Part shown: positions 48,702-63,255 of the stretch, in pieces | Layout: each line of letters starts with the position of its first letter | Position numbering within the stretch: position 1 is the stretch's first letter | DNA from: Thioalkalivibrio sp. ALJ12 | Lineage (GTDB): Bacteria; Pseudomonadota; Gammaproteobacteria; Ectothiorhodospirales; Ectothiorhodospiraceae | Reading direction: 5' to 3' | DNA length: 64,000 nt | Assembly (NCBI RefSeq): GCF_000378305.1 | Contig: NZ_KB899540.1 | Span: 129,924 to 193,923, forward strand | Made by a program: the position numbers and the translations under genes | The notes under the pieces: generated by a model | Database searches by the model: none | What the model saw: the letters and a program-made list of their open reading frames with translations, nothing else | Told to the model about the DNA's origin: nothing

Positions 48702-49028
48702 ATGGCTGAAACATTTCTGGTGGCCATCGTCGATCAGGATCGCGAGGACCTGGCGCTGGCGATCGCGGCCGAGGAAGGCGGCGCGGACGGCACGGTGATG
48801 CACGGCGCGGGGCTCGGCTTTCCGGACCACATGACCTTTCTCGGCGTGACCTACCAGGGCCGGGAGTCGATCTGCATCTGGGAGCTGGACGAGGAACGCG
48901 CCGAGCGCATCGCCCGCCGCCTGAACCTGGAACTGGACCTGCTGCAGCCGTACAACGGCCTGGCCTTCACACTGGATGCCCAGGCCCTGGCGGGCATGCA
49001 GTTCGCGGGTACCCCCGCCCAACCCTAA
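48702..49028 (+). CDS. PII-like signalling protein, paralogue 1
   Basis: This is a 108-residue protein. FLVAIVDQDREDLALAIAAEEG and DGTVMHGAGLGFPDH correspond to PII beta1-alpha1-beta2. A shortened T-loop and the C-terminal NGLAFTLDAQALAGMQF (compare the GDGKIFV.pVed. of GlnB) support a ferredoxin-like PII fold. The Tyr uridylylation site of GlnB is missing. It is similar to the gene at 49317 and follows the potassium-channel gene by 26 bases, so it may modulate the channel. Its TAA stop forms the start of the structured repeat. Confidence 0.68.
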   Translation: MAETFLVAIVDQDREDLALAIAAEEGGADGTVMHGAGLGFPDHMTFLGVTYQGRESICIWELDEERAERIARRLNLELDLLQPYNGLAFTLDAQALAGMQFAGTPAQP

Positions 49029-49294
49029 GGAAACACTGATCAATGTACACGCTCGCGTTGGTACCCCAGGTTTTCCGAGACAAGGCGCGGTGCGCAGCCG
49101 GTAGTGGTTCTACCGGCAAGGGCCGCAACGCAGGATCGGGGAACCTGGGGTACCAACCCCAAGGGGCTCGGCCGCTTTTGCGCGCGCACCGCGTTGCGGC
49201 TCCCTTGTGCAGAATGACTGCACGGCAGTCACCGCGCCTTGTTCGCACGCAAAAGCGACTCGAGCGCGAGCGTGTACATTGATCAGTGTTTCCT
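49028..49294. repeat. Structured palindromic element, copy A
   Basis: This 267-bp element has perfect 30-bp terminal inverted repeats (AGGAAACACTGATCAATGT..., 49028-49057 with 49265-49294). Inside are two arms: GTTGGTACCCCAGG/CCTGGGGTACCAAC (from 49057 to 49157) enclosing a GCCGGTAG-TGGTT-CTACCGGC hairpin, and a second arm with CGCTTTTGCG and TGTGCAG-AATGA-CTGCAC. Both arms share the loop ACAAGGCGCG. Copy B (62969-63255) is inverted and differs mainly by paired changes. It separates two PII-like genes. Confidence 0.85.
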
Positions 49295-49316
49295 AATCTT
49301 CTGCGCGAGGAACGCC

Positions 49317-61511: not shown

Positions 61512-62639
61512 ATGGACCCCATTACCCACGCCAGTCTCGGCGCCGTGATCGGCGGCCTCACCCTCGGCTCCCGCCTGGGGCGCAAGGCCGTGGTACTGGG
61601 CGCCGGTGTCGCGCTGCTGCCCGACCTGGACGCGTTCATAGCTTACGGGGACGCGGTATCGGAGTTCATCCACCACCGGGGCTTTACGCACTCCTGGCTG
61701 GTGCAGTTGCTGGTGGCCACCGGCGTCGCGGGGCTGCTCGCCAAGGTCCCGGCAACGCGGGAAATCGGCTTTGGCCGCTGGTGGCTGTTCTTCTTCCTGA
61801 TCTGGGCCACCCACTCGCTGAACGACCTGCTGACCACCTACGGCACCCAGGTACTCTGGCCATTGCCAGTCGGCCCCCTGTCCACGGGCTCGATCTTCGT
61901 GATCGACCCGTTCTACACCCTGCCGCTGCTGGTCGCGGCGATCGGCGCGCTGTTCTACCGCTTCGCCCCGCGCCTGCTGGTCGCCGGGCTCGTACTCTCG
62001 ACCGTCTATGCCGGCTCCGGCCTGGCATTGAAGGCCTGGATCGACCACCGCATCCAGCCCGTGCTGGCGGCGATGGAGCTGGAAGAGCAACCGCGAATGG
62101 TCCAGCCGACCCCGTTCAACCTGCTGCTGTGGCGTGTCACCGTGATCAACGGCGACGAGTTCCTGGATGCCTGGGTCGGCATCTTCGACGACCCGATCCG
62201 ACCCGACTTCGAACGCTTCGAGCGCGGTGACCCGGAACTGCGCGAGGCCGCGCTGGCGCTGGAAGACGGGCAGCGCCTGCAGTGGTTCTCCGGCGACTTC
62301 CTGCGCTTTCATCGCACCGCGCATGACGAGGGCCCCGACCGGCTCGTGGTCACCGACATCCGCCTGGGGGTCCCCGGCTTCTTCCCGTTCGGCTTCGAGA
62401 TCGCGGAGGAGCACAACGGCGACTGGGAGCCCATCACCTCGCGCCAGGTCGGCGAACTCCCCCGGCGCGACAGCCTCGACGCCCTCGGCGGCATGCTGCA
62501 GCGGATTGTCGATCCCGAGGGTGCGCCCTGCATTATGGACCTGGGCGATCCGGCCTACGCGATCACGGAGCCACCCCCGCGCTGCCGCATGGGTGGCCGC
62601 ACATCGCCTCCCGCCGGGGGCGCACACGACATGCCGTGA
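61512..62639 (+). CDS. Membrane-bound metal-dependent hydrolase (YdjM/DUF457-like)
   Basis: This is a 375-residue protein. The N-terminus DPITHASLGAVIGGLTLG and LLPDLDAFIAYGDAVSEFIHHRGFTHSWLVQ, seen as FIHHRGFTHSWLVQLL, carry the His/Asp metal motif. Four to five transmembrane helices with ATHSLNDLLTTYGTQV follow. It has a soluble C-terminal domain of about 180 residues. It matches inner-membrane YdjM-type hydrolases of unknown substrate. The stop overlaps the HNH gene start by 4 bases. Confidence 0.87.
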   Translation: MDPITHASLGAVIGGLTLGSRLGRKAVVLGAGVALLPDLDAFIAYGDAVSEFIHHRGFTHSWLVQLLVATGVAGLLAKVPATREIGFGRWWLFFFLIWATHSLNDLLTTYGTQVLWPLPVGPLSTGSIFVIDPFYTLPLLVAAIGALFYRFAPRLLVAGLVLSTVYAGSGLALKAWIDHRIQPVLAAMELEEQPRMVQPTPFNLLLWRVTVINGDEFLDAWVGIFDDPIRPDFERFERGDPELREAALALEDGQRLQWFSGDFLRFHRTAHDEGPDRLVVTDIRLGVPGFFPFGFEIAEEHNGDWEPITSRQVGELPRRDSLDALGGMLQRIVDPEGAPCIMDLGDPAYAITEPPPRCRMGGRTSPPAGGAHDMP

Positions 62640-62971
62640 GCCAGGACGAAGCCATGACGCCCGGGGTGCCCGGCCCGCCACCGGCCTGCGGGCTGTGCGG
62701 CCGGTCGATGGACGACCTGACGCGGCATCACCTGATCCCGCGCAAGCAGCACCGCCGCAAGCGCATCCGGCGCCTGTTCAGTCGGAGCGAGCGCGAACAG
62801 CGAATCCTCTGGGTCTGCCGCCCCTGCCACGACCACATCCACAAGCACTTTGACGAGCAGACCCTGGCCGAGCACCTGAACACCGCGGAGGCCCTGCTCG
62901 CCGAGCCGGTCGTGCAGGACTTCGTCGTCTGGATCGCGCGCCACCCGCCCGGCTTCAAGCCGCGTAGCTAG
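62636..62971 (+). CDS. Small HNH-like zinc-binding protein
   Basis: This 111-residue protein starts at GTG 62636 overlapping the previous stop. CGLCGRSMDDLTRHHLIPRKQHRRKRIRR, seen as CGLCGRSMDDLTRHHLIPRK, then WVCRPCHDHIHKHFDEQ form a two-CxxC zinc site with a His-His-x-Ile-Pro motif typical of HNH endonuclease-related folds. It might be a small nuclease or nucleic-acid-binding factor. It forms a pair with the membrane hydrolase, and its TAG stop begins the structured repeat. Confidence 0.78.
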   Translation: MSQDEAMTPGVPGPPPACGLCGRSMDDLTRHHLIPRKQHRRKRIRRLFSRSEREQRILWVCRPCHDHIHKHFDEQTLAEHLNTAEALLAEPVVQDFVVWIARHPPGFKPRS

Positions 62972-63255
62972 GGAGACGCTGACTTAATCGCACGTCCGCG
63001 CTCGAGTCGCTTTTGCGTGCGAACAAGGCGCGGTGACTGCCGTGCAGTCATTCTGCACAAGGGAACCGCAACGCCGTTCCCGCGCAAAAGCGGCCGAGCC
63101 CCTGCGTTCAATGGCTTGTGGGGTTGGTGCCCCCTGTTCCCCGATCCTTCGTTGCGCCGCTTGCGGGTAGAACCACTACCCGCTGCGCGACGCGCCTTGT
63201 CTCGGAAAACAGGGGGCACCAACGCGGACGTGCGATTAAATCAGCGTCTCCCTAA
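62969..63255. repeat. Structured palindromic element, copy B
   Basis: This is a 287-bp copy in the opposite orientation to copy A. The terminal repeats TAGGGAGACGCTGA... (62969-63000) and ...TCAGCGTCTCCCTAA (63223-63255) match with one G-T-type mismatch. Inside: CGCTTTTGCG arm, TGACTGCCGTGCAGTCATTC, and the GTTGGTGCCCCC/GGGGGCACCAAC arm enclosing GCGGGTAG-TGGTT-CTACCCGC. Stems covary with copy A while loops ACAAGGCGCG and GGATCGGGGAA are unchanged. It begins in the HNH gene stop and ends 13 bases before the dapB stop. Confidence 0.85.

Follow-up and report, generated by a model that had tools for sequence, protein, structure and literature searches.

Copies A and B, two structured repeats in the window (the whole stretch of DNA analysed, 64 kb), are non-autonomous mobile elements with ends like those of an IS5-family IS, and their interior, two inverted hairpin arms of ~105 nt, is a cargo common to elements with different outer ends across the Pseudomonadota. 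For these inner arms there is good support for selection acting on a folded single strand. The usual view of MITEs is of decayed transposons whose interiors carry no meaning; in this family the interior, which is the new part of the element, is also its most conserved part, with fold and loop letters kept throughout the phylum while stems and outer ends change, implying that the folded strand has a function in transposition, in replication or as RNA. The family is a clear case for separating structural selection, visible in a loop motif and in strand polarity, from palindrome correction that mimics covariation.

Mobility and ends of copies A and B

The sequence-only reading had located A and B correctly to within a few bases of the positions in Table 1. 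The stems, loops and paired changes that it quoted are present in the sequence, except that the left end of B is GCTGACTTAATC, with one mismatch to the right end. Mean column identity between A and reversed B is 89% in the alignment, and the predicted folding energies of −181.9 kcal/mol for A (z −15.46) and −196.2 kcal/mol for B (z −15.24) were equalled by none of 200 shuffles. The inner arms, suspected of being duplicates of each other, proved to be inverted relatives: a model built from arms matches arm 1 and then arm 2 on the opposite strand. Scanning the 64-kb window with covariance model R2 (described below) recovered the arms of both copies, and no other hit had an E-value below 0.46.

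Table 1. Positions of copies A and B and of their parts in the window
Feature	Position	Strand	Basis
Copy A, two-armed element, 265 bp, both ends like IS5-family left end	49029..49293	+	sequence; empty site in relatives L240, L242; 40 places in genome
TAA target copy left of A; doubles as stop codon of gene ending 49028	49026..49028	.	sequence, ORFs, empty site
TAA target copy right of A	49294..49296	.	sequence, empty site
Outer stem of A, left half, 28 bp (29 pairs counting flanking A-T pair)	49029..49056	+	folding
Outer stem of A, right half	49266..49293	-	folding
Arm 1 of A, motif strand +	49055..49159	+	105.4 bits to model R2
Arm 2 of A, motif strand -	49164..49267	-	75.0 bits to model R2 (A and B among the sequences used to build R2)
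Copy B, two-armed element, 280 bp, both ends like IS5-family right end	62972..63251	-	sequence; empty site in L116, L118
CTAG flank left of B; holds TAG stop 62969-62971 of ORF 62636-62971	62968..62971	.	
CTAA flank right of B	63252..63255	.	
Arm 1 of B, motif strand -	63121..63225	-	104.6 bits to model R2
Arm 2 of B, motif strand +	62998..63101	+	73.1 bits to model R2 (A and B among the sequences used to build R2)

What had been taken for a two-copy element is far more abundant: BLASTN of the window's own genome (G000) with A matches at least 40 places, a lower bound in that 40 of 78 candidates were scored, and one of these places is a 101-base fragment. Full copies in this genome measure about 265–310 bp and are short sequences that carry no transposase gene. 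Matches were found in 12 of the 24 other genus genomes searched and were absent from the remaining 12, two single-contig genomes included; one of 15 genomes from other genera had matches (two, both weak).

Empty insertion sites, which the sequence-only reading had suggested looking for in sister strains, were found for both copies. The A site is CCTAATCTT or CCTAATCTC in two relatives and CCTAA-element-TAATCTT in the window, so that TAA is duplicated and the element has the limits given in Table 1. The empty site of B reads CTGA and the copy is flanked by CTAG and CTAA, and the target duplication of B is therefore imperfect. L117 and L118 have a copy between minC and minD that neither L116 nor the window has; CTAA flanks it at either end, and at L025 the target duplication is CTAG. 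The flanks of other copies are often CTAG, TTAA or close to these, and several are imperfect; the target is thus YTAR-like and duplicated, as in IS5-family MITEs, with imperfections at B and several other sites. At both A and B the stop codon of the upstream ORF falls within the target. A hairpin-type mobile element had been one of two possibilities raised from the sequence, and the empty sites and IS5-family ends bear it out.

An autonomous IS with the same ends (~1.2 kb, encoding DDE_Tnp_1) was present in eight copies in five relatives among 30 loci fetched in the genus, and DDE_Tnp_1 matches occurred in 15 of 30 genus genomes. The one transposase tested was assigned to the IS5 family (E 2.2e-95). 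In all eight copies the left end is GATCAATG, like both ends of A, and the right end is GATTTA, like the ends of B. By this resemblance A is a left-left palindrome and B a right-right palindrome, and much of the difference between their ends is explained by A copying the left end of the IS and B the right. Judged by eye, the likeness of the element to the IS stops after about the first 17 bp. No arms were found in the eight Thioalkalivibrio IS copies or in an IS5-family IS of Mycetohabitans, the matches at L199 belonging to a neighbouring element. An interior derived from the IS, one mark of an IS5-family MITE, is accordingly not seen, yet it is not strictly required of a MITE. The shared ends suggest that A and B are members of a MITE family moved in trans by IS5-family transposases. 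In the window's own genome, searched for DDE_Tnp_1 and Y1_Tnp, no DDE_Tnp_1 gene was detected, so the mover of the copies there would be absent or of another kind. A satellite copy in L199 (1001-1315) lies directly against a full IS5-family IS, the two sharing a CTAG.

REPIN/RAYT units are not known to make a target duplication. A REPIN-like element, moved as single-stranded hairpin DNA by a RAYT (a Y1 tyrosine transposase), is a highly improbable identity for A and B, even though 26 of 30 genus genomes have Y1_Tnp matches and REPs and REPINs are described in Thioalkalivibrio in the accessible parts of two sources (PMC3116915, PMC3733652). An origin of this kind is rejected on account of the target duplication, the ends held in common with an IS5-family IS and the RAYT regions themselves: in a scan to 4 mismatches, 14 of 15 regions lacked these ends at 0–3 mismatches and the fifteenth contained an ordinary copy. 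The resemblance lies in inverted hairpin units, high copy number and the occurrence of solo and paired forms, whereas REPINs and GTAG REPs are described in those same parts as GTAG-tagged units of 20–40 bp tied to RAYT genes (PMC3116915, PMC3733652), and the present element has 105-nt arms, IS5-family ends and a duplicated target. One Thioalkalivibrio region (G040:C1:1652462-1657093) holds four tandem Y1 (RAYT-like) genes with similar scores.

Pairing in the outer stem

Self-complementarity of the ends was compared in 120 distinct copies, 102 of them A-type. The two ends of an A-type copy differ by 0.78 mismatches per 23 bp, against 2.42 when ends are re-paired at random, and uncommon variants often stand on both ends of one copy. 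With base pairs summed over 118 copies, mismatches at positions 1–21 comprise 32 G-T and 34 A-C, and positions 22, 24 and 25 add a further 68 A-C; because A-C is as frequent as G-T at positions 1–21, that part of the outer stem bears no sign of selection on one strand. Gene conversion is seen at the orthologous pairs L015/L250, L009/L254 and L003/L253, which have near-identical flanks and differ in multi-base patches that swap whole arm modules. Palindrome correction is seen in L016 and L032, each with one arm turned into a perfect hairpin (2 of 116 apical arms extracted whole, four further arms being truncated by the extraction pattern). Part of the covariation within the genome has thus been spread by these two processes.

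At the orthologous sites L003, L007, L009, L015, L021 and L025, no clear paired change was found in the outer stem apart from one ambiguous position in L009/L246; this comparison left out L005 (non-homologous flanks), L013 (flank alone), L022 (relatives without a copy), and L264 and L265 (no copy at the L009 site). Selection on RNA is not supported as the source of the difference between the outermost stems of A and B, which needs none.

Much of this is what would be expected if the fold were altogether unselected, an ordinary MITE palindrome whose halves stay paired through template switching, gene conversion and descent from a few symmetric sources. The matching ends of single copies, the lack of strand preference at positions 1–21, the perfectly corrected hairpins and the multi-base patches all agree with it, and the available part of PMC8794818 reports that hairpins are created and repaired by template switching, a route to paired change that needs no selection. 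For the outer stem this stands as the main explanation. It is disfavoured for the arms, and as an account of the fold in general we think it unlikely, since it leaves unexplained the loop motif that is near-invariant throughout the phylum (with the ascertainment caveat given below), the conserved arm length, the 3-nt spacing and the opposite polarity of the two arms of an element.

Hairpin arms across the Pseudomonadota

The first distant loci with the same architecture and different stems were L145, from an Ectothiorhodospiraceae MAG, and L150, from Methylonatrum kenyense. Two covariance models were used, R1 from arm 1 of 22 sequences and R2 from the 65 rows of alignment A3; scored at 10 candidates per genome in the class scan and 9 in the phylum scan, with stricter filters, and with E-values that are rough owing to a shortened calibration, they returned R1 arms in 25 of 47 genomes of the order and in 62 of 370 genomes (49 of 272 genera) of the Gammaproteobacteria, and R2 arms in 104 of 397 genomes (64 of 232 genera) of the Pseudomonadota, 47 of the 104 lying outside the class. 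Two non-overlapping arms of ~105 nt were found at 22 of the 40 loci of A3 and at 24 of the 29 loci of a second alignment, A4, none of which is in A3. The gap between arms is 3 nt at 23 of the 24 two-arm A4 loci and mostly 1–5 nt in A3, and arm 2 lies on the strand opposite to arm 1 except at L354 and L359 (2 of the 20 second arms of A3).

Beyond A and B, these alignments hold 42 two-arm inverted elements, two of which (L326 and L330) come from same-genus genomes; their outer stems, 27–43 bp long, are of several unrelated sequences, and TA is present at both borders of 18 elements and at one or both borders of 33. In a second lineage (L383/L396), the first 18 bases after TA in the outer stem of L383 are those of both ends of the Mycetohabitans IS5-family IS, which has CTA at both borders, and in Azotobacter one end next to an IS5-family transposase is similar to the GGGCCTGTTGACG type. 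No full-size IS was visible for AGTACTCTTTCAAGG ends in two genomes searched, which are in many contigs, several ending near these repeats, or for AGTGTCCTGTCTGAC ends in two genomes searched, and none with a third end type (from L390) was found on plasmids. Plasmid carriers include Azotobacter chroococcum, Halomonas and Pseudomonas aeruginosa, the last known from its listing alone, in five records in all. Plasmid searches with A and L388 and a phage search with one distant copy, L366, gave no match. At L397 (305-406), an arm at 38% GC keeps most of the motif and has outer ends of yet another sequence, and between the arms of many elements lies a mini-hairpin, for example CCCGAAGGG (which reads CCCTTCGGG on the opposite strand).

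Paired changes around constant loops, noticed between A and B, hold across many copies. In counts that were judged against shuffles, ignore the kinship of the arms and include opposite-strand shadow hits (3 in A3 and 5 in A4, removed for the polarity count), standard pairs fill 95.2% of A3 cells against 58.8% shuffled, with 788 two-sided changes against 215, and 93.5% of A4 cells against 55.5% shuffled, with 733 against 215; because both alignments were fitted to the structure of the model, pairing is favoured and A-C perhaps disfavoured. As a control, partners in A3 slid by 1–3 columns are 35–44% paired. An internal-loop motif, CAAGGCGC .. GCAACGC, is near-invariant among the arms found, and its CAAGGC and AACGC columns are 93–100% identical across 58 arms from beyond the genus set L001, L033 (the 58 include a few loci from Thioalkalivibrio genomes without full A-like copies); the search models contain the motif, so they would overlook relatives that lack it, and ascertainment accounts for part of its invariance.

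The arms also have a polarity. When the arms are read along the motif strand, an excess of G-T over A-C is commoner than the reverse, by 33:0 for arm 1 and 16:1 for arm 2 in A3 (without L001 and L033), and by 21:1 and 20:1 in A4. The top-strand bias is opposite for the two arms of one element, and this polarity is therefore not what mutation biased towards one strand of the locus would produce. With ties omitted, RNA energies predict the motif strand to be the more stable in 34 of 39 first and 19 of 22 second arms; the same polarity is obtained with DNA parameters (36:3 and 16:6). In counts by alignment, ties likewise omitted, the motif strand has the less stable fold in 5 of 37 first and 3 of 20 second arms of A3 and in 7 of 28 and 2 of 24 of A4, and the difference in folding energy can come partly from the shared loops. 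Selection on the folded strand, as proposed from the two copies, is thus well supported by covariation and polarity for the inner arms and finds no such backing in the outermost stem.

Whether the arms act as RNA was weighed on the same data. Read-through transcripts or short RNAs would fold the sense arm, which could be bound by an RNA-binding protein or could leave the mRNA shielded or processed. We treat this as a possibility that falls short of the preferred account. With the arms duplicated in inverted orientation, one of them is always sense whichever way the element inserts, G-T (G-U) is tolerated on the motif strand, and the motif strand is the more stable by RNA energies; none of 30 copies lies inside an ORF and a stop codon is at most 10 bp away in 9 of 30, although these figures are rough because the crude ORF caller chose a different ORF beside A. 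Coxiella MITEs, moreover, are reported as a source of sRNA in the part of PMC5896051 available. Co-orientation with neighbouring genes, on the other hand, is only 14 of 20, and neither the 64-kb window nor six distant loci gave an Rfam match, which speaks against a known structured RNA (the best sub-threshold score around A was 15.3 bits, with 36 needed). The polarity does not single out RNA, since DNA parameters reproduce it.

Proposed mechanism and related elements

The account that we prefer, and consider probable, is that of IS5-family satellites with a conserved two-arm cargo selected as folded single strands. An IS5-family transposase would move the satellite in trans, and its interior cargo consists of the two ~105-nt hairpin arms in inverted orientation, as a rule separated by about 3 nt. 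Inversion of the arms places one correctly oriented arm on each strand, and either strand, when exposed or transcribed, would show one working hairpin whatever the orientation of insertion. A common host or replication factor may, with less certainty, bind the putative hairpin, and the binding would help the element to multiply or to be tolerated. The bound form could be single-stranded DNA during copying or RNA in read-through transcripts; we regard single-stranded DNA exposed during copying as slightly the more likely selected form, and the data do not separate the two. The outer stem would be symmetric mainly through origin from one IS end and palindrome correction. Palindrome correction alone could keep the stems of the arms paired, yet would keep neither the loop motif nor the polarity. 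Counting against the preferred account are the gene co-orientation of just 14 of 20, the exceptions to the folding-energy polarity and the two second arms on the same strand as the first. For the broader proposal, a mobile inverted hairpin pair found throughout the Pseudomonadota that has moved between IS5-family end types or persisted through them, its single-stranded fold acting via a conserved host factor with one working arm per strand, we judge the chances to be evenly balanced.

The element is like IS5-family MITEs in being short and without a transposase and in its IS5-family ends, its YTAR-like duplicated target and its many intergenic copies. It differs from them in that both of its ends copy one IS end and in that its interior is a conserved two-arm fold, found phylum-wide with unrelated ends, rather than IS-derived filler. 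The lengths and ends of ERIC and Correia elements differ from those of the A/B-type element. These are likewise MITEs, and they alter mRNA processing where transcribed, according to the accessible text of PMC10969869. QMITE1 and QMITE2 of Coxiella burnetii share a strong predicted fold with the present element and are described, in the available part of their source, as having about 50 copies each and as a source of sRNA, QMITE2 lying mainly in 3' untranslated and intergenic regions (PMC5896051). Unlike the present element, they have direct repeats of 2–3 or 7–11 nt of variable sequence, and the same part of that source describes neither a two-arm motif nor covariation, so that they are set apart by description (PMC5896051). 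None of the other MITEs, REPs and REPINs described in the accessible portions of PMC5896051, PMC4853749, PMC10969869, PMC3116915 and PMC3733652 matches the element. In the literature searched, which took in few subscription papers, no description of it was found, and one may be in print.

Reduced forms with the same ends occur in the same genome as the full copies, among them a one-arm form (L070, 158 bp) and a short hairpin (L069, 80 bp), and L081 and L083 are bare end-to-end palindromes of about 28 bp, again with the same ends. Modules are swapped in the arms of L021, L030 and L037, and in L017 and L025: the AAG loop gives way to a hairpin near CCGTTTTTGATNNATTCGG and TTTT to a hairpin like CCCGTTGTTATCAAAAACGGG.
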